This document shows positions 8,157 to 52,375 of a stretch of DNA of 64,000 bases, one piece after another. The position numbers were made by a program, and so were the translations under genes. Numbering within the stretch: position 1 is the first letter of the stretch; each line of letters starts with the position of its first letter. The notes below the pieces were generated by a model. It was given only the letters and a program-made list of their open reading frames with translations. It had not been told where the DNA came from and ran no database searches. The stretch comes from Chthoniobacteraceae bacterium (GTDB lineage Bacteria > Verrucomicrobiota > Verrucomicrobiia > Chthoniobacterales > Chthoniobacteraceae): the NCBI GenBank assembly GCA_947471505.1, contig CANIWM010000019.1, forward strand, positions 1 through 64,000, read 5' to 3'.

Positions 8157-8300
8157 GGAGAGGCGAGTTGTTGTGTGAGGCCTGCGACGGGCTCGCCGCA
8201 CGGCTGGCATTGGTAAATCACACCCGAGCCAAAAAGGCGAAGGATTATCCCCACGCCAATGGGTGTGATTAAATGTGGAACAAGCGATTGAGTCGCAATG

Positions 8301-10399: not shown

Positions 10400-11929
10400 T
10401 TGAAGGCCCTCTTCGCCATTCTCGTCCGTGCTCTCCGTGAGCACACCCGCTCTCGCGCGCTCGCTGTCGCACGCGGCGGCTTTGCGGCGATGATCGTCTG
10501 GCTCCTTGCGACGCAAAACTGGGATAATGTTGTCGCGCCCGGCCTCAATTTCCTTTTCGGAGTGCTGGTGATGAACGTCATTTTCATCCTCGTTGCCGCG
10601 ACGAGTTACTTCTCGTCCGCCATCACAGAGGAAAAGGAGGAAGGCACCATCGCGCTGCTTCAAATGGCGAACGTGAGCCCCACGGGACTGCTCCTCGCGA
10701 AGTCCGGCACGCGCATCCTCGAAGGTCTGCTGCTCCTCGCCGTGCAGTTCCCCTTTGCCCTGCTCGCCGTGACGCTCGGCGGAGTGGCTTGGGAGCAAGT
10801 CGCTGCGGCCTATCTCGCACTGGTCGCGTTCGTTTTCATGGCGGGGAATCTCGCGTTGCTCGCCTCGGTGGTCGCCTCGCGCGCAACGACGGCGGCGTTT
10901 GGCACGGCGGGCTTGCTCCTGCTCGTCTTCTTTGGGGACGACTTGCTCGCGCTGCCCGCGAGACTCATGGGGATACAGGTCCGCATCGCGAATTGGCAGG
11001 CGCTCAATCCATTCACACGCCTCCGCGATGTCACCTCGCTTCTGTTCGCCGGGCCTATCGTGGAGGCGCACTTTTGGAATAGCATCCTCGTCGGCACCGC
11101 TGCGTTCGTCGCGGCGCGTATGTTGTTCGAGCGCTTTAGCCAGCCGACGGCTGAGGGTGCTCCTGGCTGGATGAGCCGCTTTTTCTCCACCTCGGAAGAT
11201 CGGCAGCTCGCAGCTCGCCCCATCAGCCACATGGCGATCGAGTGGAAAGACTACGACTTCCTATACGGCGGCGACCGATTCCTGCGCTGGAAAGTCCGCG
11301 CATACATCATCATCGCCGGAGTCTTATCCCTCCCGGCGCTCGTGCGCTGGGACCGCCATACACTCCTGCTGATCGGTGGAAATATGGTGCTCACCGGAGT
11401 GCTCGGGCTGTTGTTCGAGACATGTTTCATCGCCTCCCGTATGTTCAGCTATGAGCGCCAAACGAAGACGCTCGCCACCCTCTTGCTCATCCCCGATATG
11501 AAGACGGAATCGCTCATCCACTGGAAGGAGCAAGTCGCCGTTCTCATGCTGCGCCCGGTCCGCTTGATGCTCGGCAGTGGCTTGCTCGTCGCCTTTCTCG
11601 GCGTGTTGTACGCCGGGTTCACTACAGCGATGGTCGTCACAGCATTCGCGACGCCCGTAATGCTGCTGCTGTTCTGGCCCTTTGCTATTTTCTACATTCG
11701 CCTGCTGCGAAACTTAATCATCCACCTTTCGCTCCGCGTCTCGTGGGGCAGCATGGCGCTCGGGTTCAGCCTTTGGTTGCTCTTCATCCTCCTTACGGTC
11801 TCTCTGTTCTCTCTCGTGTCGCCAGTTTTGAGCTTCTGGCTGTCGCTCATTCCCACCAGCTACCTCAGTGATTACATCGCACGAAAAAACGTCGCACTCA
11901 TCCAAGAAGTCGCCTGCAAGGAGGGCTGA
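10400..11929 (+). CDS. ABC-2-type transporter permease, multi-pass membrane protein
   Basis: The 509-residue, highly hydrophobic protein has about 10-12 predicted membrane spans. The pattern YFSSAITEEKEEGTIALLQMANVSP near residue 75 is the conserved post-helix region of ABC-2 permeases of the Nat/YhaP type. A later segment (SRMFSYERQTKTLATLLLIP) repeats this arrangement, so the protein looks like two fused or duplicated permease halves. No ATPase gene is next to it, so the partner must be encoded elsewhere. The frame opens with TTG at 10400; no upstream ATG is available in frame. The substrate is unknown. Confidence 0.8.
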   Translation: MKALFAILVRALREHTRSRALAVARGGFAAMIVWLLATQNWDNVVAPGLNFLFGVLVMNVIFILVAATSYFSSAITEEKEEGTIALLQMANVSPTGLLLAKSGTRILEGLLLLAVQFPFALLAVTLGGVAWEQVAAAYLALVAFVFMAGNLALLASVVASRATTAAFGTAGLLLLVFFGDDLLALPARLMGIQVRIANWQALNPFTRLRDVTSLLFAGPIVEAHFWNSILVGTAAFVAARMLFERFSQPTAEGAPGWMSRFFSTSEDRQLAARPISHMAIEWKDYDFLYGGDRFLRWKVRAYIIIAGVLSLPALVRWDRHTLLLIGGNMVLTGVLGLLFETCFIASRMFSYERQTKTLATLLLIPDMKTESLIHWKEQVAVLMLRPVRLMLGSGLLVAFLGVLYAGFTTAMVVTAFATPVMLLLFWPFAIFYIRLLRNLIIHLSLRVSWGSMALGFSLWLLFILLTVSLFSLVSPVLSFWLSLIPTSYLSDYIARKNVALIQEVACKEG

Positions 11930-11987
11930 GACGAGTGCATCGTGGACATCTCGCTGCGAAACGCGCTACACAGCGGCGAGATTCACT

Positions 11988-12620
11988 TTGAATAACGAAC
12001 CGCACAACACGTCCAACGGAGAGCCCGGCATTCCTGCCGAGAGCGCGAACGATCTCGCCTTGGTCGCCAGCGCACAGAGCGGGGATACTGTGGCGTTTGA
12101 CACGCTCATTACCAAATACCGACAACGCTGCTTTGCCATGATTTACCACATGACCAGAAACGAAGAAGACGCTTGGGACCTCGCCCAAGATGGCTTCGTG
12201 AAGGCGTGGAAGAGCCTCGCGAACTTCCGTGGGCAGTCGGGCTTTTATACGTGGCTTTATCGCATCATGACGAATGTAACGCTCGACTGGCTGCGCAAGA
12301 AACACATCCGGGGCGGGCAGGAGTTCGACGACACTATCGGCCTCCGCAAAATCGAGCCCGCCGCCACGACCGCGCCCAAGCCGACGATGGAGCCCGCCGC
12401 ACGCATGGCCGACGCGGAGATACGCCAGCGCATTGATGCGGCCATCGAGAAACTCTCGCCGGAGCACCGCGCCGTCATCGTCCTCCGCGAGATCGAGGGG
12501 CTCGAATACCAAGAAATCGCCGACGCTCTCGGCTGCTCCATCGGCACCGTCATGTCCCGCCTATTTTACGCCCGCAAGAAACTGCAAACGCTACTCCAAG
12601 ACATCTATGAACAACTCTGA
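11988..12620 (+). CDS. RNA polymerase sigma factor, ECF (sigma-70) family
   Basis: Region 2 is seen in AFDTLITKYRQRCFAMIYHM and AWDLAQDGFVKAWKSLANF, and region 4 in LSPEHRAVIVLREIEGLEYQEIADALGCSIGTVMSRL. The product is about 210 residues from a proposed TTG at 11988. The frame is open upstream to an ATG at 11868, which would overlap the permease gene by 62 bases and add a Ser/Lys-rich leader, so the later start is preferred, but this is not settled. Its 3' end overlaps the putative anti-sigma gene by 14 bases, indicating translational coupling. It resembles RpoE-like ECF factors that answer envelope signals. Confidence 0.85.
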   Translation: MNNEPHNTSNGEPGIPAESANDLALVASAQSGDTVAFDTLITKYRQRCFAMIYHMTRNEEDAWDLAQDGFVKAWKSLANFRGQSGFYTWLYRIMTNVTLDWLRKKHIRGGQEFDDTIGLRKIEPAATTAPKPTMEPAARMADAEIRQRIDAAIEKLSPEHRAVIVLREIEGLEYQEIADALGCSIGTVMSRLFYARKKLQTLLQDIYEQL

Positions 12621-32957: not shown

Positions 32958-35900
32958 CTATGGTGCGACAATCAATCCGATGGATTCTACGTCAGCGCCA
33001 GAGAGGCCGAAGACTCCGACTCCCAGCTTCCCATCACCGCCGAGAGTCACAGCGCCTTCCTTTAGTTCACCGGCGATCCATTCGCTTTTATACGTCTCGG
33101 GTTTTTCCGAACCTATCTTGGCGAAGATCACTTGGAAACCGCCGAGCCGTTCCGCGCCGGGGCTCACGATCAGCCCGCTCACGGCGTAGCCTTCTTTCGC
33201 TTTGATGGTCTTAAATTTCGTGTCTGCTCCGCCACGGGCCTTGCCGGAGACGATGCCGGCGAGCGTTAGGAAGATGGGTAGGAGCGCCTTCACCATCGGC
33301 GCGTTTTTCCACGTTCCGTTGACGTATTCGAACCCCACGAGAAGCGATCCGGTTTTGGGAAGATCGGTCCAGCCGTCGCCCGCTTTCGATGTATCCCGCG
33401 TGGTCGAGCCCATTGGCCCGAGCCGCTGGAGCGTGCGGGCATCAATTGCCGCCTTGAGCCGCTGTGCGAGAGCAGCGTCGAGCAGCGCTGGTGGACCGGG
33501 CGGTACAAACTTGAAATGCCCGCCCGCGAGTAGTTTGACGGTCGCTGGGCTGCGCGCTTCGTTATACACCTGAATCTTATCGAGCAGCCCGGAGAACTGC
33601 TTGTTCTCCACCGCGACATCGGTCGGCTCGGCAGGGCTGGTGCGGCTGGTGCCGAACATCGTGCCAAACGCCAGTCGCTCGTGATCACCGATGATATGGG
33701 CATACCCACTCCCGACTTCAGTTCCATCGAGGTAAAACCGGAGCGCCTTGCTTTTATCCGCCCCAGCCGCCGCGAGCGTGAGCGCGAAATGGTGCCATTT
33801 TCCCGCGACGATTCCGTCGGCCTTGAACCATGTGCCGGCCCACTTTGGCTTGGCTGGGTGGTCCCAACCGCCCGCGTAAATCGTCCCGCCCAGCAGATAG
33901 ACCGCATAGCCCCGGTCCACGCCGCCTGCATCGTAAAGGTAACACCGGGCAGCCTTGTCGTCCGTGCTATCGGCTCGAAACCACATGGAGATCGTCCGCG
34001 TTGGGTGCGAGCCTTGGTTGCTGTGCGGACATTCGTGGAGCGTGAATCCGGCCGACTTCCCGCCGAGCTTCATCGCCCCCGTACCGCCTAGTCCTTCGCC
34101 GAGCACGAACTCAGGGGTGCCGACGACGTTGCCGACGTGTAGGTTGTCTGGAGTGATGGCGCCGATTTTCTTGCCGGTCCACGGATAGTTCAGTTCCCAA
34201 GCGGCCACGAGTTGAGGGCAGTCCGGGAAATAGTTAGAAAGCCACTCGCGCAACACTCGCAGCGAACCGTCTGGCGCGGAAACCGTGAACGACTTGAGCC
34301 ACATCGCGAGCCCTTGATGCCCGATCGCGATTCGGTTTGCGGCGATATTCGCAACCTTGGGCTCGGCGAGGTTTTTCAGTTTCCCAATCCACATCAGCGG
34401 CGCGCCGTCACCAATCCTCGCGAATATCCGCACATCCTCGCCATGCGTCGCGACGGCTACGCTCAGCTCGCAATCCTTGCCTTTTTCAAACGGGGGAATC
34501 GCCACCTCTCCAGTTCCGTCCTGCGTCTGCCCGGCGAGGTCGAGCTTTGCAAATCCCTTCGCTGAACCGTTGACGCGCAGCATCGCGTGAGTGCGCCCGA
34601 TGGGGAGATGGATGAGCAATTCTCCCTCTGCGTTTCTGCTCGGCACAAACTCCATCTGCAACTCGTAGTCGCGGCTTGGGACCACCGCGCTCTCGCACCA
34701 CGCTTCAGGTTCCGTTTTCGTTTCAAGCCCTGTTCCTTTGCGCTCCCAAGTGCCGGACTTCACGTCATTTTTCAAAAAGCAGATAGTCAGTAAATCCAAG
34801 TTCTGCTCCGGCGCACTCATCATCCGCGAGCGTCGGAACATCGTCTCGAAACTCATGCGGTAACTGCTGTTCCGCTCATCCTGCTGTAGCCCTGCTGGCG
34901 GGTCGGTCAGCGGAATATGGCCACGGGCCGAAGCCATCACTCGCCCTTTCGTTTTAAGCTCGATCTCGTATGGGACGTTCAGCGTTCCGAGATCGTAAGC
35001 GGAGACCTCGATGCTTGTCGCCTTTCCAAAATCCACAGTCGCATCATTCATCTGGCCCTGAAGCTCCGGCAATTCCGTCGGCATGCCGTCCACGACCTCG
35101 AACTGCCCGCGCTCTTCATCGAAATGAACAAGGGTCGTCTTCACGACTTTGCCTTCGGTCGCCATACTCCGAATCTCCGAAAGTTGAATGCGCTTCCCAG
35201 CGATTTTTACCAGGCAATCGTTCACATTCGCATGGTAGCGCAACACGCCCACTTGGGCGGTAAACCACAGCCGCAGAGGACCGGACGGCTCTAGCGGCGC
35301 GGCTTTGATACGATACTTCCCGTCCTTTCTCTCGGCGGTGAACGAGCGACGCTTGCCGGCTTCGCCAAAATGCACGACCACTTCCGAACCCTCGGCAACC
35401 GACGTCGTGGGGAAGATTTCCACCTCGAATTCCTGCACCTCGGCACGCTTGGAAAATGGCATCTCCGGAACCCGCATCGAGAGCACCGGTTGCGCGATGA
35501 GCTTTTTCACGCGCGCGGCAGGAATCGCAAAATTCACGTTCGCACCGCCGATTCCTGATACGACGACACCGACCACTCCGCCATCCGCCGTCATCACCGG
35601 GCCACCGGAATTTCCTGGGTTCGTAGCAGCGTCGAGTTGGATTCGCTCCAGCACGCCGCCGTCTTTTCGTAACGCACTCACACGGCCGGCGTTGATGCTA
35701 ATCGCGGGCGATTGGTCGCCGCCAGTGGCGAGCATTTTCCCAAACGGATAGCCGAGCACGGCGATGCGCGAAAGTTCGGCGAGAGCAGCTCCATCCGCTA
35801 GGCGCAGTGGCTCGATCTTCAGCGGCTCATCCGTCTTGAGCAGCGCGAGGTCATCGTCTTCGGAAAGGAGAATCACCCGCGCTGGGACACGGCGCTGCGT

Positions 35901-36194
35901 TGCCTCGCCGGAGTTCAGCACGAGCGTCACTGGCTTCCCCACAGGAGCATGTTCTACGACGTGGCGATTCGTGACAAAGATGCCCGAAGCATGAACGAGA
36001 AACCCAGTTCCGCTCCCGTTTTTCCCAAGGTCCACCATCGCCGTAGCCTCCTTTCCACGCTTCACCGCAGCGGGCGAGAAATCGCCCCCATCCGCAGAAG
36101 CCGCAATGCAGAGAGATGGCAACGCGATGGCGAGACATGCGGCCGCACTCCAAGAGCAGCGACTAGGAAAGAATGAGGTTCGATGCGTTTGCAT
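32958..36194 (-). CDS. Exported trypsin-like (S1C) serine protease fused to a LamG-type domain
   Basis: The 1,078-residue protein is taken from the ATG at 36192-36194. A signal peptide (ends near IAASADG) is followed by a Deg/HtrA-like protease domain with a complete triad: H78 (VTNRHVV), D115 (DDDLALLK) and S196 (NPGNSGGPV). No PDZ domain is obvious. After a long middle region without a recognised fold, a LamG/concanavalin-type domain lies at about 740-925 (TISMWFRADSTDDKAARCYL, KWHHFALTLAAAG, ALRFYLDGTEVGSG). Protease plus carbohydrate-binding-like domain suggests processing of surface or polymer-bound proteins. Substrate unknown. Confidence 0.82.
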   Translation of the reverse strand: MQTHRTSFFPSRCSWSAAACLAIALPSLCIAASADGGDFSPAAVKRGKEATAMVDLGKNGSGTGFLVHASGIFVTNRHVVEHAPVGKPVTLVLNSGEATQRRVPARVILLSEDDDLALLKTDEPLKIEPLRLADGAALAELSRIAVLGYPFGKMLATGGDQSPAISINAGRVSALRKDGGVLERIQLDAATNPGNSGGPVMTADGGVVGVVVSGIGGANVNFAIPAARVKKLIAQPVLSMRVPEMPFSKRAEVQEFEVEIFPTTSVAEGSEVVVHFGEAGKRRSFTAERKDGKYRIKAAPLEPSGPLRLWFTAQVGVLRYHANVNDCLVKIAGKRIQLSEIRSMATEGKVVKTTLVHFDEERGQFEVVDGMPTELPELQGQMNDATVDFGKATSIEVSAYDLGTLNVPYEIELKTKGRVMASARGHIPLTDPPAGLQQDERNSSYRMSFETMFRRSRMMSAPEQNLDLLTICFLKNDVKSGTWERKGTGLETKTEPEAWCESAVVPSRDYELQMEFVPSRNAEGELLIHLPIGRTHAMLRVNGSAKGFAKLDLAGQTQDGTGEVAIPPFEKGKDCELSVAVATHGEDVRIFARIGDGAPLMWIGKLKNLAEPKVANIAANRIAIGHQGLAMWLKSFTVSAPDGSLRVLREWLSNYFPDCPQLVAAWELNYPWTGKKIGAITPDNLHVGNVVGTPEFVLGEGLGGTGAMKLGGKSAGFTLHECPHSNQGSHPTRTISMWFRADSTDDKAARCYLYDAGGVDRGYAVYLLGGTIYAGGWDHPAKPKWAGTWFKADGIVAGKWHHFALTLAAAGADKSKALRFYLDGTEVGSGYAHIIGDHERLAFGTMFGTSRTSPAEPTDVAVENKQFSGLLDKIQVYNEARSPATVKLLAGGHFKFVPPGPPALLDAALAQRLKAAIDARTLQRLGPMGSTTRDTSKAGDGWTDLPKTGSLLVGFEYVNGTWKNAPMVKALLPIFLTLAGIVSGKARGGADTKFKTIKAKEGYAVSGLIVSPGAERLGGFQVIFAKIGSEKPETYKSEWIAGELKEGAVTLGGDGKLGVGVFGLSGADVESIGLIVAP

Positions 36195-36382
36195 CGCCGG
36201 ACGATAGCGACACCGAAAGGTGGTGCGAGGGCAAAGTTCCATACGCAGCCTGTTGAAAAATAGCGCTGGCTAGGTCGTCAGACTGGAGGCACGGGGGCAT
36301 TCTTGGGGATGCACATTCGCGTAGTCAGACGGACTATTTGCACATGACCGATACCCAGTTTTGCCACGACACAACTTACGCC
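36195..36382. other. Intergenic region between two leftward genes
   Basis: About 190 bases with no supported gene. It should contain the promoter for the protease-LamG gene. I see no clear terminator or repeat in it. Confidence 0.4.
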
Positions 36383-38248
36383 CTACTTCGCGAAGTGCAG
36401 GGCTCCAATGACGCCCATTTCGCCCGTGCGCGATTTCGCGGCCCACGGCGGGGCGTTTTTCACGGGCATGTCTGGACCGGCGGGAAGGCTGCCGTCTTTG
36501 GAAAGCGGGGCGTAGCCGGTGATGAGCACGCCGCCTTGGATCGGAAAAGCGCCTTCAAGTTTCACGTCGCTCGTCGGGGCACCTTTGGTCTTCGCATCCC
36601 ACGTGCCGGTGACGAGGCTGCTGTATTTGAGGGCCTTCAGCTCGCGATCATAGACTCGGACGAAGTCGCTCCACTTGCTCTCGCCCTCGTCAATCTTCGG
36701 CATTTTTTGAAAAGCATTTGCTGTCGTGATGACGCGTCGCCCGGTGGCGATGATGTAGATGCTCCCTGCGCCATCGACGTGCAGCGCTGGCTGGCAGCGC
36801 GTGGTGTTTACGTCGGGCCATCCGCCGTTGGGCGAGGGCCAGCCATCGAGAAGCGGATCGGGATGCGGCTTGCCGTCGAGCTTTGCGTTTTCGTTCCACT
36901 CGGCCACGTAGGTTGCGTGGAGCATGGTGCCTTCATCGAGGGCCATGCGCCCGAGCCAGCCGATGTGGATGTTGCCGTTCTTTCCGGTGAATGAGTTTTG
37001 GAATGCAGTCTTCGGATTTTTCGGGTGCTCGATTTTGTTGCCGTTCCAAAAGTTGATGACGTTGTTGCCGTGGCAGCGGGCGAGCACGATGAGCGCGCCA
37101 TCGGTGCTGTAGTCGATGGCGAGGCCGTCCACGTATTGGTCGGGCGTGGAGTTTTGCGGCGTCTCTTTATAGAGGCGCTGCCACCACTTTTGCTTCCCGT
37201 CTTTCGTGAACGCGATGACGAAGGGCTCGAAGTCGGGCTGTCCGTCGGGGAGTTTGGATTGGTTGTTCCCGCCGAGGTAGATGTCATTTGTGCGGCGATC
37301 CACGGCGATGGCTTGGGGGTGACCCACGGGGTTGCGGCCCCATTTGTAGCCGGTGTAGCCGGGGCCGCCGGGACTGGAGCTGGGGTTCTCGACATTGAAT
37401 GGGCCGGAAAAATAGTAGTCCCACGGCCAGCGGCCTTGCTTCGTGCCGCCGTTTCCGTCGCTGGTCTGCGCGGTGTAGTCTGCATCCGTCCACGAGCGCA
37501 GTGAGCCTCTGCCCGTCATTTTGAAAACAATCGCCGAGCGTGTGCTCTTGCCGTTGGGATTTGCGGACGCCGGGGAGCCCTGCCAATCGCTCTCGCTCTC
37601 GGTCCAGTGATTGCGCCAGTGCTCGACGACTCCCGGTTTCCCATCCGCATCGAGTCGCTGAACATCCGCCCAGTCCGGGCTGTGCGCCTCGCCGCTGGCG
37701 AAGACGACGCGCCCATCGCCGCCCACATCCCACGGTTGTTTCTCGGCGATGTCTTTCTTCGCTTTGGCCTGGAAAAACCACGCGAGTTTCGAAGGGACGC
37801 CGCTCACGAAATTGCTGTCGAGCTTCGCGATGAAATACCCGCCCGCGTTTTCACCCGAGATGAAAAGTTCCCCCGTTGCCGCGCCGGGGACACCGCTCGT
37901 CTTCACCCAGCGGATGCTCTTGGCGACATCTTTTGGCAACGCGAGCACTGTGCCGATCTTGCTCAAATCGGGACGCATGAGGAGGAGGAATGCGGTCTTC
38001 CCTGAAGTCTCCACGGGCGGCGCACCTGCAAGCTCCACGCGCTTCGTGTCTGCGGGCAGCCAGTCGAGATTATCAGCTCCACCTGCGACGAGGACTGCGC
38101 CTTCGGTCAACGCGTGGACGCAGGTAAAGCGGACATTCCCCGCCCCGCCTGCATAGGCGAGGGTGTCGTTCTGCGCATGGCTTGTGAGTGCAAGTCCGAG
38201 CGCGAGTAATTTCGAAATTGTGGCGAAGTATGAAGAGGATGGGTGCAT
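36383..38248 (-). CDS. Large secreted protein of unknown function
   Basis: The 621-residue protein is taken from the ATG at 38246-38248 (MHPSSSYFATISKLLALGLA, a signal peptide ending near TSHAQ). Motifs such as VRWVK-like strands, AIAVDRRTNDIYLGGNNQSK, FVIAFTKDGKQKWWQRLYKE and PALHVDGAGSIYIIATGRRV repeat the beta-propeller theme seen in NHL/SBBP or quinoprotein-like sequences, so a propeller fold is likely. No enzyme motif stands out. The 51 codons upstream of the chosen start overlap the divergent sigma-factor region and lack a signal. Confidence 0.75.
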   Translation of the reverse strand: MHPSSSYFATISKLLALGLALTSHAQNDTLAYAGGAGNVRFTCVHALTEGAVLVAGGADNLDWLPADTKRVELAGAPPVETSGKTAFLLLMRPDLSKIGTVLALPKDVAKSIRWVKTSGVPGAATGELFISGENAGGYFIAKLDSNFVSGVPSKLAWFFQAKAKKDIAEKQPWDVGGDGRVVFASGEAHSPDWADVQRLDADGKPGVVEHWRNHWTESESDWQGSPASANPNGKSTRSAIVFKMTGRGSLRSWTDADYTAQTSDGNGGTKQGRWPWDYYFSGPFNVENPSSSPGGPGYTGYKWGRNPVGHPQAIAVDRRTNDIYLGGNNQSKLPDGQPDFEPFVIAFTKDGKQKWWQRLYKETPQNSTPDQYVDGLAIDYSTDGALIVLARCHGNNVINFWNGNKIEHPKNPKTAFQNSFTGKNGNIHIGWLGRMALDEGTMLHATYVAEWNENAKLDGKPHPDPLLDGWPSPNGGWPDVNTTRCQPALHVDGAGSIYIIATGRRVITTANAFQKMPKIDEGESKWSDFVRVYDRELKALKYSSLVTGTWDAKTKGAPTSDVKLEGAFPIQGGVLITGYAPLSKDGSLPAGPDMPVKNAPPWAAKSRTGEMGVIGALHFAK

Positions 38249-38386
38249 GAAAAATGAGGCGATGTTGTTTAAGCGCAGTATGCCACGGTGCCGCCGTGAG
38301 AACGCCCTATTTCCTGAACATCGCGCGGCGTAGGAAAAATGAATTTCCAGCGTTCTATCCGAGGCACTGCGGCATATTTGTTTGAG

Positions 38387-38935
38387 ATGAACGAAATCCA
38401 CGACTCAGAACTGATCGCCGCGATCCGCTCCGGGCAGCGCGAGCTTTTTGCAGAGCTGGTGCGCCGGTACCAAAGCGATGTGTGGAAGGTCGTCGCTTCG
38501 ATGCTCAGTGGCTTTCACCGGACGGAGGATTTGGCGCAGCAGGTGTTCATCAAGGCGTTTATGGCGCTCGATACGTTTGATACGCATCGCGAGTTTGGAC
38601 CGTGGATTCGGACGCTCGCTCGCAATGAGGTGAAGATGGAGTTTCGCCGTATGGAGCGGGAAGGGCGGAGGCTCGACATCTACCAGCAACAGCTCCTCGT
38701 CGGGCTCGCGGATCACGAGGCGGACTCGCTACAGGCGGACCAAGAGGCGCGGCTGGCGCGTTGCGTCGGAGAGCTGAAGTCGCCAATCGCCGATGCGCTC
38801 CGTTGGCGCTACGAAAAGGGCGAAGACTTTGCGGTAATCGGCACGCGCCTCTCCCGTTCGGCGGATGCCGTGCGGGTGATGCTCAATCGCGCGCGGGTGC
38901 TGTTGCGCGAGTGTATCGAAAGGCAGGCGACATGA
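38387..38935 (+). CDS. ECF sigma factor, Rhodopirellula/Verrucomicrobium type
   Basis: The 182-residue protein starts MNEIHDSELIAAIRSGQREL. Region 2 is LFAELVRRYQSDVWKVVASM with TEDLAQQVFIKAFMALDTF; region 4 is the less usual ADALRWRYEKGEDFAVIGTR with LSRSADAVRVMLNRARVLL. This is the subclass common in Planctomycetes and Verrucomicrobia whose genes precede FecR-type regulators. Its stop overlaps the FecR-PA14 gene by four bases (ATGA). An in-frame ATG at 38339 would add 16 residues and is not preferred. It may control the giant surface protein genes downstream. Confidence 0.9.
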   Translation: MNEIHDSELIAAIRSGQRELFAELVRRYQSDVWKVVASMLSGFHRTEDLAQQVFIKAFMALDTFDTHREFGPWIRTLARNEVKMEFRRMEREGRRLDIYQQQLLVGLADHEADSLQADQEARLARCVGELKSPIADALRWRYEKGEDFAVIGTRLSRSADAVRVMLNRARVLLRECIERQAT

Positions 38936-40296
38936 CGCGCATCGAGGAACTCACGCTTTTGCTCGCCGATGGTGAAATCGCTTCCGAGGAAGTCACCGAG
39001 TTGATGGCTTTGACGGAATCTGCCGAAGCACGGGAAACCTGCCTTGCGCTCTTGAACATCGAAGCACTCCTGCGCGGGCAGCGCGATGTGGATATAACTC
39101 TGCCCACGATGGCACGGCTCACGGCGGAGCTAGAGCGCCGCATCGTCAGCCGTGTGATGTCGCAAATCCCGGCAACGAGCCCGGTGCGGGCGGCGGCAGT
39201 TTCGCGCGCGACGCCTACGCGTCGGCGGCGAAACTGGCTGCTCGCTTCCGCAGCGCTGGTCGTTTTGGGAACCATCGGCACCCTCATGTGGCCCTCATCG
39301 TTGCGCTCGGTGCCGGTGGGAGAAATCACCGCGATGACTGGCAATGCTTGGATTCAGTCGGGCGGGAAAAAGCGTCCGGCAAAAAAAGGCGAGATCGTGA
39401 ACAGCGGAGAACGGCTCACGGTGGGCTTTGAATCTTCCGCCGATGTGAAGTGGCTGCACGAGGACGCGCAGTTCACGCTCGCCGAGTTGAGCGATATGGC
39501 TTGGCCGACGCCGGAGCTTTGCGAACTGAAGTCGGGCGCGCTCGATGCACAGGTCGTGACGCGTGCCGGAAAGAAACCGCTCTTTTTCAAAACACCCGAC
39601 GCTACGGCCAAGATCACGGGCACTCACTTTTCACTCCATCGCGGTTCCAACGCTACGCAACTCCGAGTCAGTGAGGGCAGCGTCCGACTGGCGGACTCCG
39701 ATGAGCGTGGCTCGACGGATGTCATCGCGGGGCAGTTTGCAGCGGCCTCGGATGCAGTAGTCCCGCAAGCGCGGACGTGGCCGGGGGATGGAATGGGCAT
39801 CGGGCTGCTCGGGGAATACTACAATCACAACTACAACTCGATGGACACCACATCTCCGGCGTATGAGCGACTGGATGCACGCATCCGCTTCCAGTGGGGA
39901 ATGGGCGCGCCGACTCCGGTGACACAGGCGCACCCAGAACACTTCGGTGTGCGGTGGACGGGCTTTATCGAACCCCGATTTTCCGAGGGCTATACGTTCC
40001 TCATCGTCGTGGACGATGGGGCGAAGCTGTGGATCGACGATCGGCAGATTCTCGATGCGTGGAGCAGCAATGGCGCGAAGAAATACTACACGCAGCCTGT
40101 GGAGCTGCATGCCGGGAAGCGCCACAAAATCCGCCTCGAGTACTGCGAGCGCACCCAGCAGGCAAACGTGTCCCTTTTCTGGCAAAGCCTCAGCCAGCCG
40201 ATGGAGGTGGTGCCACCGACACAGCTCCATCCCCCGCAGCGCGACAACCTCCCGGCACTCGGGGAACTCCGCCTTATTCCCGAACGCAAACGCTAA
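38932..40296 (+). CDS. FecR-domain anti-sigma/sensor fused to a PA14 domain
   Basis: The 454-residue protein has a cytoplasmic N-terminal part (about 1-98; LLADGEIASEEVTELMAL resembles anti-sigma N-domains), one transmembrane helix (about 101-120, LLASAALVVLGTIGTLMW), a FecR domain (about 127-260; AWIQSGGKKRPAKKGEIVNS, ATAKITGTHFSLHRGSNATQ) and a PA14 domain (about 300-425; GLLGEYYNHNYNS, VRWTGFIEPRFSEGYTFLIV, DDGAKLWIDDRQILDAW). FecR proteins relay envelope signals to ECF sigma factors; PA14 is a glycan-binding fold. A carbohydrate-sensing anti-sigma factor is the natural inference. The giant repeat gene begins 51 bases downstream. Confidence 0.88.
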   Translation: MTRIEELTLLLADGEIASEEVTELMALTESAEARETCLALLNIEALLRGQRDVDITLPTMARLTAELERRIVSRVMSQIPATSPVRAAAVSRATPTRRRRNWLLASAALVVLGTIGTLMWPSSLRSVPVGEITAMTGNAWIQSGGKKRPAKKGEIVNSGERLTVGFESSADVKWLHEDAQFTLAELSDMAWPTPELCELKSGALDAQVVTRAGKKPLFFKTPDATAKITGTHFSLHRGSNATQLRVSEGSVRLADSDERGSTDVIAGQFAAASDAVVPQARTWPGDGMGIGLLGEYYNHNYNSMDTTSPAYERLDARIRFQWGMGAPTPVTQAHPEHFGVRWTGFIEPRFSEGYTFLIVVDDGAKLWIDDRQILDAWSSNGAKKYYTQPVELHAGKRHKIRLEYCERTQQANVSLFWQSLSQPMEVVPPTQLHPPQRDNLPALGELRLIPERKR

Positions 40297-40347: not shown

Positions 40348-43300
40348 ATGAACATGAACAAAGTCCTCACCACATCCGTCGCCGCGCTTCTTTGCGTGGT
40401 TCGAGTCAATGCAGCCGTCATTTACTGGGACATCAATGCGGGAAACATCGGCGCGACCGACACGACATCCGCAACCGGTGCGTGGGATGGTACGAATGCT
40501 TTTTGGAATAGTCTCGCCGACGGAACCGCCGGAACATTCACGGCGACTACGACCTCGCTGGACGATCTCATTTTTTCCGCAGGAGCAAACGCCACGGGCG
40601 CGTCCACCATCACCCTGACGGGCACCCAAACGGGAAACTCGCTGAGTATCGAAGAAGGCACTGTCTCCGTGAGTGGAGGAAATCTCAGCCTTTGGGGTGG
40701 CGGGCTCACGATTAATGCCGGTGCGGGAGCGACAAGCATTTCGGCGGCGGTGACGATCGAGGCGGCACAAACATGGTCAAACAATTCGTCGAACCTTCTG
40801 ACGGTGAGCGGCACGGTCAATTACACCGGCGGGTTGACGATGAGCAGTGGCGACATCCGGCTGACCAATCAAACCAACACGGGCACAGGCGGCCTGACCA
40901 TTACCGGCGGGAAGTTGCAGGTGGGAACGAGCAACGCGACCAATCTGATCGCGGGAGCCGCATCGAGTATTCTGACGCTGTCGGGCGGCACCATCACCAC
41001 AACCGCCGGCGGCAGTGGCGGTAGCCGGACATTTGGGAACGATCTCCTCGCGAATGGAACCGTGCTCATCGGCGACGGGACCTTCACCGGGAATAACTAC
41101 ACCTTCTCCGGTGCAAACCAGACGTTCAACGGAGCAGTCCTCAGTTCCCGAGACAACAATGGCGTGTCTTTCACCACCGCGCCGGCAACGCTGAGTGGCA
41201 ATCTCACGGTCAATTCTCCAGGAGCGGGCGTGGCCGCGAGCTTCACATTCAGCGGCGGATTCACCGTCAATGGAACCAACCGCACCGTGACGCTCAACAA
41301 TGACGTAGGAGCGGTAACGATTTCCGGCCCATTGGCGGGCACCGCACCTGGGCAATCGATCACACTCGCGGGAACAGGCACCAACAATAACATCGGCGCT
41401 ATCACCAGCGGCACAAACGCCCCGAACGTCATCGTCAATGGCGACCCTGCCGGAGTGTTCAAGTTCACCACGGCCAATGCTTACAACGGCGGGGTGACGC
41501 TCACGAACAGCATCACCGAGATCCAGAGCGATACCGGTTTCGGAACCGGCACCTTGACTCTCAATGGCGGCACCATCCGCCCCGGAACCACCGGAGACCG
41601 TTCATTAAGCAATGCCGTCGCTATTACCGGAGGGAACTCCACTTTTGCGTCGAGCACCGCCAGCGGACGCTCGCTGACTTTGACGGGCAACGTCACGTTG
41701 AGTGGCACCCCGACGCTGACTTTCAGCAATACGAACGTCACCGCCTTCACCACGGGGTCCTTCACGCTGAATAGCAACGCGACCTTTTCCGGCTCCGGCA
41801 ACTACTCCATCCGCAACGGCGTCGCATGGGGCGCAAGTCGCGAGATCACGGTATCCAGCAGCGGCACAGGAGCGATTCGCGGAGCGTTATCGGGAAGTGG
41901 TTCGCTGACTTTTCTTGGCACGGGGTCCTTGAGCGTGGGCGATGGCACGGCCCCCGCGGTAACGGGTAGCGCTGGCAGCGGATTGATTGTGGACGGACCC
42001 ACGATCACTTTTGGCACGAGCACGAGCACCTTTTCGGGAGGCGTCACGCTGACATCGGGGACCATTCTGATCGGTGGAAGCTCCGCTGGCGGCCCGCCTC
42101 CGACCAGCGGCCCGTTCGGAACAGGCACCATTTCCCTGAATGGCGGGACGTTTCGCGCCAGCACCACCCAAACCATCGGGAATAGCGTGAACGTTGGTGG
42201 TACAGTCACCATTAGTGCCTCTGGCAATCCCACGAACAATTCCGTGACGCTGTCCGGTGCCGTCGCGATGAATGTTGGTGCGAACGTCACCTACACCAAC
42301 GCGGTCGCAAGCTCTTCCCATGCGATCTCCGGCTTGGTCAAGCTGAATTCGTCCCCGACGATCAACCTAAACTCCAGCGCAGGAACTGGCAATTTCGTGA
42401 CCTGGAGCGGCGGGCTCGATCTGAACAATGCGGATCGCACCCTTACCGTGAGCGGCACTGCCGTGCGTGCGCTCGCCATCAGCGGCTCACTGAAGGATAC
42501 CGGAGGAACGGGGCATAACCTGACCATCAATGGAGCGAATAACGTGACGGCGAGTGGCCTAATCACTGCGGGCACGGGAAATCCCGGCATCATCTACAGC
42601 GGCACCGGCATCTTCGACGCTGGCACCAACGCCTCAACGTGGACTGGCGGCTTCACCCTGGACTCGGGAAGGGCGAACCTCGACGTTCCCAGCGTCGTGG
42701 GCGCAGGTGCTGTCACCAGCGGTCCCTTTGGCACCGGCACCGTTACCTTGAACGGCGGACACCTTGCGGAAGGCAGCACCAGCCGGACTCTTCACAATAA
42801 CCTCGTCCTAAGCGGCACCGTGACGATGGCCAGCACCGTCAACCCCGGTAACACTCTCACTTTCGATCCCACCGGCGTCACCGTCCCAGCAGCGGGCACC
42901 ATCACGGTGAACGGCCCGGTCACCATCATGACGAATCACGCAGGCACGACCGGCCTGACCCTGACAGGCCCGATCACTGGCGGCACGGGCACGCCGAGCC
43001 TCACGATCAAAGGCTCCAGCTTTGGCGGGGCCAACATCACAAACGGCATCGGCACGGTAAACCTCGTCAATGGCGGCGCTGCGAGCACCTTCGGCAACGT
43101 CTTCGTGGGGGAAAGTGTCGCGTCCGGTTCGCTCGGCGGCATCCTCACCGCGAGCAGCCAGAACGCGATGGGCGCGGGAACGTACACCATCAACTACGGC
43201 GGCTCGTTTTCCACCGTGACCACGGCCTTCAATCCAACCAACGCGATCAACGTAAATAGCGGCGGAACGCTGTCGCTGCGCGGAGCGGCTACACCGAGTG

Positions 43301-43926
43301 GATTGGTCACGCTCAACTCCGGATCCATCATTGCCGCCAACACGGGCACGGTGACGTTCACGAGTGGGACGAACGTCTCCGTCCCGACGACTGGCGTTTT
43401 ATTCAACAACTCCAGCGCGGGCGTCACACTCACCAACGCCTACCCGGCATTCACCGGCACGATGGCTTTTGGGGGGAATGGTTCCGGCAGCATTACGACT
43501 TCCGCCGCCACGACCACCACCGGTGCGCAAACCCTCGCCTTTAACCAGACCGGTGCCGGGCAGATGATATTCAACGGCCTTGCGCTCGGTGGGACGCTAA
43601 CCATCACGGGCAGCGGGAACAACAGCGTCGCCGGTGCCATCCCCCAAGGTACGGCGGCCTCACTGGGCACAGTCAGCGGCGCGCAGGGTTTAGTCTTGAG
43701 TATGGCTCCCACTGGCGCGATCTCCATGTCTCAGCAGACTTCCGGTGTGTCGAGTATCACCCTTCAGCGCGGCACTCTCGCCATTGATGGCGGCAACACC
43801 ATCGGCATCAAGGCCGGCGGAACTGTCAACTTGAACGGTGGAACGATCCGAAACCAGAACGGCGCCAATAATAACTCGACTTGGCAGGACGCGATTTCCG
43901 TCGGGGCCAATGGGGGGACGATCTAG
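40348..43926 (+). CDS. Giant beta-strand-repeat/PEP-CTERM protein, segment 1 of 3 (ends at in-frame TAG)
   Basis: This 1,192-codon frame opens with a signal peptide (MNMNKVLTTSVAALLCVVRV) and then DINAGNIGATDTTSATGAWD, the usual start of autotransporter-associated beta-strand-repeat proteins. Many repeats follow with blocks like GTGTLTLNGGTIRPGTTGD and FSGGVTLTSGTILIGGSS, which predict a right-handed beta-helix. It stops at TAG 43924-43926, but the same frame continues at once with SFSTNNAQIVSFTGAITGSG and more repeats, so this is an interruption and not a natural end. The full gene would run to 47687 (about 2,445 residues). Probably transported and displayed on the cell surface. Confidence 0.85.
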   Translation: MNMNKVLTTSVAALLCVVRVNAAVIYWDINAGNIGATDTTSATGAWDGTNAFWNSLADGTAGTFTATTTSLDDLIFSAGANATGASTITLTGTQTGNSLSIEEGTVSVSGGNLSLWGGGLTINAGAGATSISAAVTIEAAQTWSNNSSNLLTVSGTVNYTGGLTMSSGDIRLTNQTNTGTGGLTITGGKLQVGTSNATNLIAGAASSILTLSGGTITTTAGGSGGSRTFGNDLLANGTVLIGDGTFTGNNYTFSGANQTFNGAVLSSRDNNGVSFTTAPATLSGNLTVNSPGAGVAASFTFSGGFTVNGTNRTVTLNNDVGAVTISGPLAGTAPGQSITLAGTGTNNNIGAITSGTNAPNVIVNGDPAGVFKFTTANAYNGGVTLTNSITEIQSDTGFGTGTLTLNGGTIRPGTTGDRSLSNAVAITGGNSTFASSTASGRSLTLTGNVTLSGTPTLTFSNTNVTAFTTGSFTLNSNATFSGSGNYSIRNGVAWGASREITVSSSGTGAIRGALSGSGSLTFLGTGSLSVGDGTAPAVTGSAGSGLIVDGPTITFGTSTSTFSGGVTLTSGTILIGGSSAGGPPPTSGPFGTGTISLNGGTFRASTTQTIGNSVNVGGTVTISASGNPTNNSVTLSGAVAMNVGANVTYTNAVASSSHAISGLVKLNSSPTINLNSSAGTGNFVTWSGGLDLNNADRTLTVSGTAVRALAISGSLKDTGGTGHNLTINGANNVTASGLITAGTGNPGIIYSGTGIFDAGTNASTWTGGFTLDSGRANLDVPSVVGAGAVTSGPFGTGTVTLNGGHLAEGSTSRTLHNNLVLSGTVTMASTVNPGNTLTFDPTGVTVPAAGTITVNGPVTIMTNHAGTTGLTLTGPITGGTGTPSLTIKGSSFGGANITNGIGTVNLVNGGAASTFGNVFVGESVASGSLGGILTASSQNAMGAGTYTINYGGSFSTVTTAFNPTNAINVNSGGTLSLRGAATPSGLVTLNSGSIIAANTGTVTFTSGTNVSVPTTGVLFNNSSAGVTLTNAYPAFTGTMAFGGNGSGSITTSAATTTTGAQTLAFNQTGAGQMIFNGLALGGTLTITGSGNNSVAGAIPQGTAASLGTVSGAQGLVLSMAPTGAISMSQQTSGVSSITLQRGTLAIDGGNTIGIKAGGTVNLNGGTIRNQNGANNNSTWQDAISVGANGGTI
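43924..43926 (+). other. In-frame TAG interrupting the giant gene
   Basis: The codons before (ANGGTI) and after (SFSTNNAQIVSFTG) are in the same frame and continue the same repeat pattern. A single-base substitution explains it. The original residue cannot be told from the local repeats. Confidence 0.75.
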
Positions 43927-43953
43927 TCCTTTTCAACCAACAACGCTCAAATC

Positions 43954-45645
43954 GTGTCCTTCACCGGAGCCATCACGGGATCGGGGCCGCTGACCCTGCG
44001 CTATGGCGGCAGCAGCGCCAATACCAGTAGCGTCCTGCTGGCGCCTGCCTCGACCTCCAGCTACAACGGCACCATTACTGTGGCAACGGCCAACGGTCGT
44101 GGCCGCGCCCAATTCAACGCGAACAGCCTAGACGGTATCGCCGCAGGCGGGGTGACGGTTCCGGCTGGCACTGCGTTTACCATGGATACTCTGGCGGCTC
44201 TGACCGCCAACATTGGCAAGTTCACCACCAATGCGAACTCGATCCTCGCGTATGATAATTTCGTCGGCAACAGCGTCAACCTCAACACCCTCGGCAGCGA
44301 TGTCCGTATCGGCAACTCGGGCACGGTTACCGTTGCCGCTGCGGTCACCCTTACTCCCTTCGGCAGTACTTACAATTTCAGCCCTGGCGGCAATTTTGTG
44401 GTCAACACCACCAATTGGCTCTCCGGTGCCAACAATCTCGATGTGCGCGCCGGTGCGATTGCGCCGGGAGCCTACGGCGTCGCCAACCCGGGAGCCAACT
44501 CCCTCGCCCTCGGGGGGACGGGTCAGACCTACACTGGAACCACGACAGTTTCCGGCATCATCAACAACAGCCTGATGGGAACGGGCACCACCGGCACCAA
44601 TCTCCATATCACGGGCGATGTGTCCGCCGCCGGGGCCACCAGCGTCACGCGCGGTGGTGCCATTCGCCTCTTGGGTGCCGCCGGCAAGCTTTCGGGCACC
44701 AGCGGCATCACGGTGCAGGGTGGCGGCATCTTCGTGAATGGGGATACAACGGCGGCGAACAACAATAGCGTCTCCAACCGTATCAGCACCGCTGCCACGC
44801 TCACCCTCGGCGGCACCGACGGTGGCGGCACGTTCACCATGGCCTACGCCGCCTCGGGCGTGCATGCGCAAACATTTGGCGCACTCACCATCGGACCAGG
44901 CGCAAACACGATCAATAACGTCAACACGGCTGCCGGGACGGCCACCCTGACTTTTACCAACCCCGCCATCGTCAACAACGGCGGTCTGCTGAACATTGCC
45001 TCGACTTTCACGAATAGCGTGTTCGCCCTCGGTGGTGCCCCGACCCTTACTACAGGAAACACCTTCGGCGGCGGGCTTACAGTCAACCTTCAGAGCGTCG
45101 CGGGTAACCCGGGTGATTTTATGACGGTGAACGGTTCGAACCAGATCGTCGCGGTAGGCTCGGCTGGGGCGCTCGGCGTCTATACCACTCAGACGAACAC
45201 GACATTCGATGATACCTCGTTCACCAATGCGACAAATCTAAATTTGGATGGCAACACTCCCGCATTCAACAAGACCTTAAGCGGTAGCAAGACGATCAAT
45301 TCGCTTCGCACCTTTGCGTCTGCCAATTTCAATAACATCACGCTGACGATCCCCACCTCGGCGATCCTGACGGTAGCCTCGGGCGGAATCATCGGTACCG
45401 GCCACGTCGGTAGCAATGCCGGCATTCAAGGGTCGGTCACAATTGCCGGGGCGGGCACCCTTTCCAGCGGCACCAGCGACATGTATCTCTATGGCCCCAT
45501 TCAGACCACTGGGAATCCGCTGACGATTAGCGCGTCCATCAACGTCAACAGCGGGAACGGCGCGCTCTTTGTGCGGTCCGGCGTTGCGAGGCTCAGCGGC
45601 ACTGCCAACAGCTTCGGGATCTCTCTGTCCTCGGCTCCACGTTAA
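43954..45645 (+). CDS. Giant beta-strand-repeat protein, segment 2 of 3 (interrupted gene)
   Basis: This frame is the direct in-frame continuation of segment 1 beyond the TAG; coding similarity resumes at 43927, and GTG 43954 is only the first possible start. It has the same beta-strand repeats (LALGGTGQTYTGTTTVSGII, ATLTLGGTDGGGTFTMAY) and no signal peptide, so it would not be exported by itself. It ends at TAA 45643-45645 after SGTANSFGISLSSAPR, where reading has left the correct frame: restoring one G in the run at 45616-45618 gives SFGDLSVLGSTLIINAVGAL and joins segment 3. Confidence 0.75.
   Translation: MSFTGAITGSGPLTLRYGGSSANTSSVLLAPASTSSYNGTITVATANGRGRAQFNANSLDGIAAGGVTVPAGTAFTMDTLAALTANIGKFTTNANSILAYDNFVGNSVNLNTLGSDVRIGNSGTVTVAAAVTLTPFGSTYNFSPGGNFVVNTTNWLSGANNLDVRAGAIAPGAYGVANPGANSLALGGTGQTYTGTTTVSGIINNSLMGTGTTGTNLHITGDVSAAGATSVTRGGAIRLLGAAGKLSGTSGITVQGGGIFVNGDTTAANNNSVSNRISTAATLTLGGTDGGGTFTMAYAASGVHAQTFGALTIGPGANTINNVNTAAGTATLTFTNPAIVNNGGLLNIASTFTNSVFALGGAPTLTTGNTFGGGLTVNLQSVAGNPGDFMTVNGSNQIVAVGSAGALGVYTTQTNTTFDDTSFTNATNLNLDGNTPAFNKTLSGSKTINSLRTFASANFNNITLTIPTSAILTVASGGIIGTGHVGSNAGIQGSVTIAGAGTLSSGTSDMYLYGPIQTTGNPLTISASINVNSGNGALFVRSGVARLSGTANSFGISLSSAPR
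45616..45626 (+). other. Probable one-base deletion site (GGGG to GGG)
   Basis: Adding a G to the GGG at 45616-45618 converts the reading from SFGISLSSAPR-stop to SFGDLSVLGSTLIINAVGAL and connects segments 2 and 3 without loss of the repeat pattern. The exact position within the next few bases is not certain. Confidence 0.65.
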
Positions 45646-45656
45646 TCATTAACGCA

Positions 45657-47687
45657 GTGGGCGCACTGCCCACAACTGGAACCCGAGCCATCAATCTGCA
45701 GGGCGGAAATTTGCAAATGAACGTGGGGGGTGCCTTTGGTTCGGGCACGACGCTCAATGTAAGTCCGGCTGGAGGCACTCTCAGCCCTTTCAGCAGTTCG
45801 GCGTTGAGCTTTGCGGGCAATGTCACACTCAATGGCGCCCTCGGCTTTGGTTCCCCAGGTGGCGGGACTGGGTCAAACACCACACTCAGTGGCAATTTGA
45901 CCGGCCCTGGGATGTTGGGAATCGGCAAACAAACGGACGGCAAGAATACCATCGTCCTCTCGGGTGATAACAGCTCATGGACCGGCGGCGTCCGTTACGA
46001 CACCGCCTTTGGCAATAGTGCCTCCGGCAACACCCACCTGCGCTTCTCCCCTTCGGTGGCGGGCCGCAATTCTGCCGGCACCGGCCCGATTGTGCTGGCG
46101 AGCGGCAATAACCCCGGAGGCATTTATTTCGATACCACGGCAGCCGGTTCGACGACTTTTTCCAATGACATCGTCAACAACCTGACCGTCACCCCCATTG
46201 TCGCTTGGGGCCTCAGCACCGGCTTGGGCACGGCGGGAACGGCGAATACTACGACGCTCTCCGGTAGTCTCGTGGGAAATCAGGGCCTCTTTTTGCAAGG
46301 CTACGCCACGAGCGACAGCGCGATCAGCGAGACGGTCCTCTCCGGCACCGTTTCGGTGAGCGGTGCAGCCACAGGCTTCAGCTACGGCACGGCCAGCGGG
46401 TCGCAAAACTTCAACAACGGACAAGGCGGCATCACCCTCGGTGTGACCAACTTCCGCGCGCTCACACTCCAAGGCACGGGAAACCTCCCGCTCGTCGAGC
46501 TACCCGTCGGCTCCGCATCCAATGGCGCGGAAGGCTTCGTGCGATTCGGCGGCGTCAACAGCTTCATCCCCGGCGCAGTCGGCCCCGGCTACCTCTCCGC
46601 GCTCCGCAAAAGCGGCACCGGCAACGATGCCCGCTTCGGCTACCTCCTTACGGGCACTGGCGGCGCGGGAACCAGCTACACGCTACCCGACGGCAAGAGC
46701 TTCCTCATCGGCTCCCTTGGCACAGGCACACGCGTCGGCGGCACACTCGGCGTCGCGGGCGGCGGAACGGCCACCTTGCTCGGCGGAGAAAGCCTCAGCG
46801 GATTCGCCAGCGGCGACATCAATATCCACGCGAACGGCTCCACCGATGCGCAGGAACTCACCCTCCTCGCACGCGACACCGCCGACCGCCTCATCATCGG
46901 CAGCGCGGGGAATGCCGTCACCTTCGCACCCACCACCGGCGACAGCGGTGCCACGAGCGCCATCACCCTGCTCGCCGATCGCACCGGCACGACGACTTTG
47001 CTAAAGCGCGGCCTCGGCACCATCGAGATTGTGAACGCCGAGTTCACCGGCATCGGCGGCACCACCAACGACGACCGCGCGAACGTCTCGTGGCAGGTCA
47101 GCGAAGGCACCCTCGCCTACAACCAGACCGACGGCGCAGTCAGCGACTTCGCGGGCATCACCGTCGGCCTCAGCGGCACACTCAGCGGCAGCGGCGTGAT
47201 CAAAGGCGACGTCACCAGCGCGGGCACCATCGCCCCCGGCAACAGCATCGGCACCCTCGGCGTCAGCGACCTCATCATGTCCGGCGGCAGCACATTCGCC
47301 GTAGAAGTCGGCAGCCTCACCGCAGACAAACTCAACGTCACCGGCACCGCCGCCCTCAGTGGCACGGGCAACATCACCCTCAGCATCACCCTCACCGCCG
47401 ACCCGACCGACTTCACCAGCTTCGTCCTCATCAACAACGACAGCAGCGACGCATTCGGCTTCGGGGCCAACCGCTTCAGCGTCGGCGGCACCCCGCTTAG
47501 CGACGGGGATTCCTTTATCGTCACCTCCGGCGCATTTACGCAGGAGTTCCAAATCGACTACACGTTCAACGGCGGAGGCGACGCGCAAAACAACGACGTC
47601 GCGCTGCTCGCAGTCCCAGAGCCCGGCAGCGCAGCGCTATTGCTCGGAGGACTGGCGTTGCTCGCCGCTCGCCGCCGCCGGAGCTAG
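45657..47687 (+). CDS. Giant beta-strand-repeat protein, segment 3 of 3 with PEP-CTERM anchor
   Basis: The 676-codon frame holds the final repeats, a conserved terminal region (TLAYNQTDGAVSDFAGITVG, VTSAGTIAPGNSIGTLGVSD, FTSFVLINNDSSDAF) and a PEP-CTERM sorting signal: VPEPGSAALL, a hydrophobic helix and the Arg-rich end AARRRRS. PEP-CTERM signals are cut by exosortase; no exosortase gene is in the window. The frame opens before the ATG or other start shown here and joins segment 2 by a one-base shift. No signal peptide is present, so it is the 3' part of one gene. Confidence 0.8.
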   Translation: MGALPTTGTRAINLQGGNLQMNVGGAFGSGTTLNVSPAGGTLSPFSSSALSFAGNVTLNGALGFGSPGGGTGSNTTLSGNLTGPGMLGIGKQTDGKNTIVLSGDNSSWTGGVRYDTAFGNSASGNTHLRFSPSVAGRNSAGTGPIVLASGNNPGGIYFDTTAAGSTTFSNDIVNNLTVTPIVAWGLSTGLGTAGTANTTTLSGSLVGNQGLFLQGYATSDSAISETVLSGTVSVSGAATGFSYGTASGSQNFNNGQGGITLGVTNFRALTLQGTGNLPLVELPVGSASNGAEGFVRFGGVNSFIPGAVGPGYLSALRKSGTGNDARFGYLLTGTGGAGTSYTLPDGKSFLIGSLGTGTRVGGTLGVAGGGTATLLGGESLSGFASGDINIHANGSTDAQELTLLARDTADRLIIGSAGNAVTFAPTTGDSGATSAITLLADRTGTTTLLKRGLGTIEIVNAEFTGIGGTTNDDRANVSWQVSEGTLAYNQTDGAVSDFAGITVGLSGTLSGSGVIKGDVTSAGTIAPGNSIGTLGVSDLIMSGGSTFAVEVGSLTADKLNVTGTAALSGTGNITLSITLTADPTDFTSFVLINNDSSDAFGFGANRFSVGGTPLSDGDSFIVTSGAFTQEFQIDYTFNGGGDAQNNDVALLAVPEPGSAALLLGGLALLAARRRRS

Positions 47688-52026: not shown

Positions 52027-52375
52027 AATACCGCCATTGACCGATGTCGCCCCTACTTAGGTATTCGCGCCGGTGAGCGTGAGAGTGTTATTGCCGAGCT
52101 TGGTGAGCGCTCTCGCGGCTGTGAGCGCGGTCGATTGGGTAAAATTGCCAGCCGTGGTGTCGATGGCCACACCAGACGCCGCATTCAGGTTGAAACCCGC
52201 GAGGGTGTTCGTGTTGAACAGAGCCGCCACATCCGCATCGCTGTAATCACCGGAGACCGCGCCGACGCCGAGGCCGACAGTGCCCGTAGCGGCAGTGGTG
52301 ACAGTGGTGCCCGAGGATCGGGCCGCAGTATTGCCGAAGGTCAAAATGCCGTTATTGACCGAAGTCGCGCCCGTG
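51740..52375 (-). repeat. Two tandem 318-bp coding repeats
   Basis: Units 51740-52057 and 52058-52375 are highly similar direct copies of exactly 106 codons each, encoding PNTAARSxGTTVT to [16 protein letters not shown]. The in-frame TAA lies at their junction. The third equivalent junction is at 52375-52377. The period being a multiple of three lets recombination add or drop units without frameshift. Confidence 0.8.

Follow-up and report, generated by a model that had tools for sequence, protein, structure and literature searches.

The Sigma-FecR-PA14 Locus

The window (the whole 64,000-nucleotide stretch of DNA analyzed here) derives from a freshwater Verrucomicrobia-type bacterium and encodes an ECF sigma factor followed by a predicted membrane protein that carries both a FecR domain and a PA14 domain (FecR-PA14). 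The features of the locus are as follows.

36383-38248, minus strand: secreted propeller-like protein, 621 aa, divergent from the sigma gene; candidate target or partner, from its co-occurrence with FecR-PA14
38249-38386, no strand: divergent intergenic stretch of 138 bases, delimited by the gene starts; predicted site of the promoters of the sigma operon and the propeller-like gene
38387-38935, plus strand: ECF sigma factor, 182 aa, gvs1-like (Rhodopirellula/Verrucomicrobium family); Sigma70_r2, TIGR02989
38932-40296, plus strand: FecR-PA14 gene, 454 aa; start ATG 38932, stop 40294-40296
38932-39171, plus strand: predicted cytoplasmic anti-sigma domain, residues 1-80; weak RseA/RslA/MucA/RsiW profile matches, four helices in a low-confidence model
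39235-39291, plus strand: transmembrane helix, residues 102-120, from hydropathy; helix 97-118 in the low-confidence model
39454-39687, plus strand: FecR domain (PF04773), residues 175-252, with Gly230-Thr231 at 39619-39624
39802-40215, plus strand: PA14 domain (PF07691, E = 2e-21), residues 291-428, with Asp361-Asp362 at 40012-40017
40348-47687, plus strand: giant PATR-type PEP-CTERM gene, interrupted (ORFs 40348-43926, 43954-45645 and 45657-47687); candidate target by position

The sigma ORF extends from an ATG at 38387 to a TGA stop at 38933-38935, and a four-base overlap (ATGA) joins this stop to the FecR-PA14 start, exactly where an earlier interpretation made from the letters of the DNA (the sequence-only reading) had placed it. 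Region 2 matches Sigma70_r2 (E = 1.2e-13, above the Pfam cut-off), and region 4 is weak (Sigma70_r4_2, 0.0025, under its own cut-off). With regions 2 and 4 only, and 66.6 bits against the sigma70-ECF model TIGR02937 (cut-off 42.9), the protein belongs to the ECF sigma factors. The best NCBIfam model is Sig-70_gvs1 (TIGR02989), for which the score of 111.8 bits does not reach the curated cut-off of 124.55; on this comparison we call the sigma gvs1-like and not a TIGR02989 member. The ATGA-coupled sigma/FecR-PA14 pair is retained in two further genomes, in which FecR-PA14 is 91% and 66% identical to that of the window, and thus the pairing is not due to chance. An alignment of the upstream regions of these orthologous units gave scattered blocks only, none of them convincing as a shared promoter motif, and a common motif was therefore dropped from consideration. 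A second ECF sigma factor, in which regions 2 and 4 are both strong, is encoded at 11868-12620 (plus strand) of the window.

Domain Organization of FecR-PA14

FecR-PA14 was proposed in the sequence-only reading to unite an anti-sigma-like N terminus, a membrane helix, a FecR domain and a PA14 domain in one protein, and this organization is upheld, with PA14 (76.8 bits, 2e-21) and FecR (29.0 bits, 1.5e-6) both above the Pfam gathering cut-off of 24 and the N-terminal matches weak. Residues 102-120 form the sole strong hydrophobic stretch (mean Kyte-Doolittle 1.81 over 19 residues). When a 58-member profile of the N terminus was compared with the PDB, anti-sigma N-terminal domains were the only matches, all of them weak (RseA, 0.0048; RslA, 0.0073; MucA, 0.12; RsiW, 0.13); in the profile search, the middle part matches 4m0n, a putative anti-sigma factor with a FecR fold. 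Gly230, Thr231 and Phe233 of the FecR domain are invariant in all 58 sigma-linked FecR proteins of the family set described below, and the Gly-Thr pair is an expected hallmark of the FecR family, not independent proof of self-cleavage. The Pfam scan found no DUF4974 in the protein, and at E values up to 1 it gave PA14, FecR and GLEYA as the only matches, with the RsgI N-terminal domain absent. An AlphaFold2 model built from a three-row alignment had a pLDDT of 40, too low for use in fold searches. A comparison of two alignments by hhalign was discarded as circular, since one of them contained the three sequences of the other.

Among solved structures, the PA14 domain is closest to those of RsgI3 (6qe7) and of a related clostridial PA14 protein (6qdi). 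Identity to PA14-1 of RsgI3 is 41.5% over 142 residues, with the Asp-Asp pair retained, and Asp361-Asp362 are present and invariant across the three FecR-PA14 orthologues. Sugar binding is not universal among PA14 domains, anthrax protective antigen being an example. In PA14 lectins, an Asp pair (DcisD) holds Ca2+, through which the sugar is bound (PMC8092209), and the PA14 pair of RsgI3 binds pectin, with SigI3 driving pectinase promoters (PMC4711584). Direct polysaccharide sensing is therefore well motivated here, given that the nearest solved PA14 is that of RsgI3, and it has a precedent for an anti-sigma protein of another sigma family; by this analogy, the PA14 domain could be a built-in sensor with which the cell feels polysaccharide directly.

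Sigma-FecR Units with Lectin-like Ends Across the Family

We compiled 60 FecR matches out of 40 family genomes, selected rather than random and mostly within the expected size and profile range, together with five sister or related proteins, for a set of 65. A gvs1-like sigma gene lies directly upstream of FecR in 55 of the 65, and several of the remainder are at contig ends. All 58 sigma-linked proteins have the FecR domain, and their further Pfam matches include LamG (28), CBM96 (5), DUF6081 (4) and PA14 (3), the last being the window protein and its two orthologues. The combination of sigma, membrane FecR and lectin-like C-terminus is the usual design in this family. The premise of the sequence-only reading that FecR proteins as a rule receive their signal via a TonB receptor is not apt for this lineage, in which FecR typically sits behind a sigma gene and lectin-like ends are normal; the search it proposed, for the same architecture beside sigma genes, yields a common arrangement of sigma and FecR with a lectin-like end, with PA14 as a rare version.

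FecR and PA14 did not turn up in one protein elsewhere when 388 genomes sampled from the phylum and 103 from the class were searched; with a limited number of candidates scored per genome, further rare cases could have escaped. The short PA14 proteins of other genomes that were checked as possible FecR-PA14 proteins are secreted enzymes, a kinase, and others that lack a FecR part. In the window's genome, the gvs1 sigma model has 29 matches, FecR 10 and PA14 17, and in the sister units FecR is followed by LamG (two units), by sequence that Pfam does not recognize, or by repeats adjoining a PATR/PEP-CTERM gene. At one such locus (L042, 314-4612), an intact PATR/PEP-CTERM gene diverges from a sigma-FecR unit in which FecR ends in repeats; at another (L043, 11927-12481, minus strand), an in-frame TAA splits the gvs1 sigma gene that precedes FecR-LamG. 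Among 28 units for which the first downstream gene was scanned, 11 have a DUF1549/DUF1553 cytochrome-type protein in this position. A block of sigma, FecR-LamG and DUF1549/DUF1553, often with DUF1501, recurs in the family genomes (L155-L212). No description of FecR-PA14 or of sigma-FecR-LamG units was found in the literature, searched mostly outside subscription journals. The FecR-PA14 combination is rare, and it is one variant within a modular set of switches that is large and has received little study.

Neighboring Genes and Candidate Targets

The genes nearest the unit encode the propeller-like protein, a trypsin-LamG protein and the PEP-CTERM protein, and no TonB-receptor gene was seen among the adjoining genes of the window. 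The trypsin-LamG gene (32958-36242, minus strand) encodes a 1094-aa fusion of a trypsin-like protease and a LamG domain. At 3045-8210 (minus strand), the window also encodes a 1721-aa protein that has no Pfam match at E values up to 0.001.

The giant gene begins 51 bases after the FecR-PA14 stop, at 40348, in agreement with the sequence-only reading. It is interrupted by an in-frame TAG (43924-43926), after which the frame is open to 45645; a frame change near 45640 then leads into the ORF that ends at 47687 with a PEP-CTERM motif (22 bits). Because of these two lesions, the gene may not yield a full protein in this strain (or assembly). No PATR match exceeds the Pfam cut-off in the window gene, the repeat type of which was assigned from composition. 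In the 91% relative (L087), the giant-gene copy has an early frame change beside a small direct duplication. A second giant PATR/PEP-CTERM gene (53508-47728, minus strand), with an in-frame TAA near 52057, is convergent with the first.

As the next gene, the giant gene may receive read-through from the sigma operon. Its earlier designation as a likely target holds in part: position favors it, as does a PATR/PEP-CTERM gene in the same place in one orthologous locus, the 66% relative, where an intact PEP-CTERM gene (1164 aa) directly follows FecR-PA14; but the window copy is interrupted and the two PEP-CTERM proteins give no alignment, sharing only class and position. In addition, the window's genome has roughly 35 PATR genes among the matches listed (counted by contig and frame), so adjacency to such a gene is in itself weak evidence. 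The genome also encodes an exosortase (156 bits).

The propeller-like protein (so called provisionally, after a weak NCBIfam match) has no Pfam match, and its AlphaFold2 model from a three-row alignment (pLDDT 29) was likewise too poor for fold searches. It is found in three of the 40 family genomes, precisely those with FecR-PA14, and is adjacent to the unit in all three. Both the window and the 91% relative have the gene divergent from sigma; in the 66% relative, sigma, FecR-PA14, PEP-CTERM and propeller-like genes follow one another in one direction. Its presence in exactly these three genomes links it to the sensor across the rearrangement, and it is a better conserved candidate target or companion than the giant gene. 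Propeller homologues in six other genomes were considered as markers of further units, and sigma/FecR genes are not adjacent to them.

Proposed Mechanism and Alternatives

FecR and FoxR are processed by self-cleavage at a Gly-Thr site, then by Prc and RseP (PMC9249621), although in FoxR the self-cleavage is not essential (PMC9249621). The window's genome encodes an RseP orthologue (218 bits). Based on the PA14 relatives, the N-terminal profile, the Gly-Thr pair and this RseP orthologue, we read the unit as an ECF/FecR anti-sigma switch, a cell-surface signaling unit in which its own glycan receptor replaces the TonB receptor, and we consider this reading reasonably probable. The ECF sigma would be held at the inner membrane by the N terminus of FecR-PA14, with the FecR domain in the periplasm and the fused C-terminal PA14 serving as a receptor for a sugar polymer, where classical FecR would make contact with a TonB receptor. 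The FecR part, which has probably cleaved itself at Gly230-Thr231 in the manner of FecR/FoxR, would be opened to a site-1 protease when the ligand binds (or when there is a pull on it); intramembrane cleavage by RseP would follow, and the freed sigma would activate its own operon and the nearby surface genes, which encode the giant PEP-CTERM protein and the propeller-like one. Gene order, domains, conservation and the RseP and exosortase genes are what is observed in this scheme; sequestration of the sigma, the class of ligand, the proteolytic steps and the regulon are inferred. The glycan sensor envisaged in the sequence-only reading stands as far as its architecture is concerned, with a sugar-type PA14 on an anti-sigma-like FecR, RsgI3 as the nearest solved PA14, and no adjacent TonB-receptor gene; its ligand is the inferred part.

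The PA14 domain might instead sense the cell's own surface, either its own exopolysaccharide or the adjacent PEP-CTERM/PATR layer, which would make the unit a sensor of envelope state. The neighbors are surface-protein genes and not genes for carbohydrate-degrading enzymes, the genome has an exosortase, and exopolysaccharide has been linked to PEP-CTERM/exosortase systems (PMC1569441). Against this, the nearest PA14 relatives read external plant polysaccharide, and the scanned genes adjoining the unit include none for exopolysaccharide; we regard sensing of the own surface as unlikely, though deserving of some weight.

Two other readings concern the ends of the protein, and to both we give little credence. 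In E. coli FecR, the first 59 residues are essential for sigma activity (PMC7406223; PMC9249621), and FecR-PA14 could likewise be a pro-sigma rather than an anti-sigma protein, in that the sigma would depend on its N terminus for activity and an active fragment would be released on signal. However, the N-terminal profile looks like that of classical anti-sigma domains (RseA, RslA), and the tryptophans described as conserved in FecR (PMC9249621) are missing, with a Trp count of zero in residues 1-80; a pro-sigma role therefore seems improbable. The PA14 domain could also be a ligand-free structural spacer, in which case sensing would fall to the FecR domain or to a partner; the propeller-like protein, the gene for which strictly co-occurs with the sensor, could be such a partner and present the ligand. 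PA14 domains are known to have non-lectin roles, but this one is well conserved between orthologues, with Asp361-Asp362 kept, which makes a passive spacer a doubtful proposition.

Comparison with Known Systems and Implications

In its functional logic, the proposed anti-sigma switch most resembles RsgI3 of the SigI/RsgI system of Clostridium thermocellum, also a membrane anti-sigma with a C-terminal extracytoplasmic PA14 (about 42% identical), encoded directly behind its sigma gene, and with sister copies that bear other sugar-binding modules (CBM3, CBM42, GH10). The unit differs from RsgI3 in having an ECF sigma rather than SigI, a FecR domain rather than the autocleaving RsgI periplasmic domain, one PA14 rather than two, and a Gram-negative envelope. 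Given the ECF partner and the lack of a match to the RsgI N-terminal domain, the best reading is that the unit works like RsgI but is not a member of that family. FecI/FecR and FoxI/FoxR likewise pair an ECF sigma with a downstream membrane protein that has one helix, a FecR domain and a Gly-Thr site, whereas here PA14 replaces the receptor-contact end, DUF4974 gives no match, and both marks of classical FecR cell-surface signaling, an adjoining TonB receptor with a signaling domain and a receptor-contact C-terminus, are lacking at the locus. The gvs1 sigma plus FecR-LamG units of Verrucomicrobiota, sister copies of which occur in the same genome, have the same sigma type, FecR core and gene overlap; the present unit has PA14 instead of LamG/CBM96, and a PEP-CTERM gene next to it rather than the DUF1549/DUF1553 genes seen behind 11 of the 28 scanned units. 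Overall, the core is ordinary and the sensor end is new, with RsgI3 as a close functional precedent.

To our knowledge, many ECF sigma factors of Verrucomicrobia and Planctomycetes have no known signal. The PA14 end comes from a domain family for which a ligand class has been demonstrated (pectin, in the case of RsgI3), and this provides a concrete signal candidate for one such sigma. Since lectin-like ends are exchanged on a shared FecR core, the ligands of other units could probably be approached likewise. It is nearly an even call, leaning slightly against, whether Verrucomicrobiaceae run a class of TonB-independent ECF systems for direct glycan sensing, built on one conserved sigma/anti-sigma/FecR core with exchangeable lectin-like ends (LamG, CBM96, PA14 and others) and convergent with the clostridial RsgI array, in which the PA14 unit would drive surface-layer genes (PEP-CTERM and propeller) and not degradative enzymes. 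If so, direct polysaccharide sensing by anti-sigma proteins would have arisen at least twice, on RsgI in Clostridia and on FecR here.
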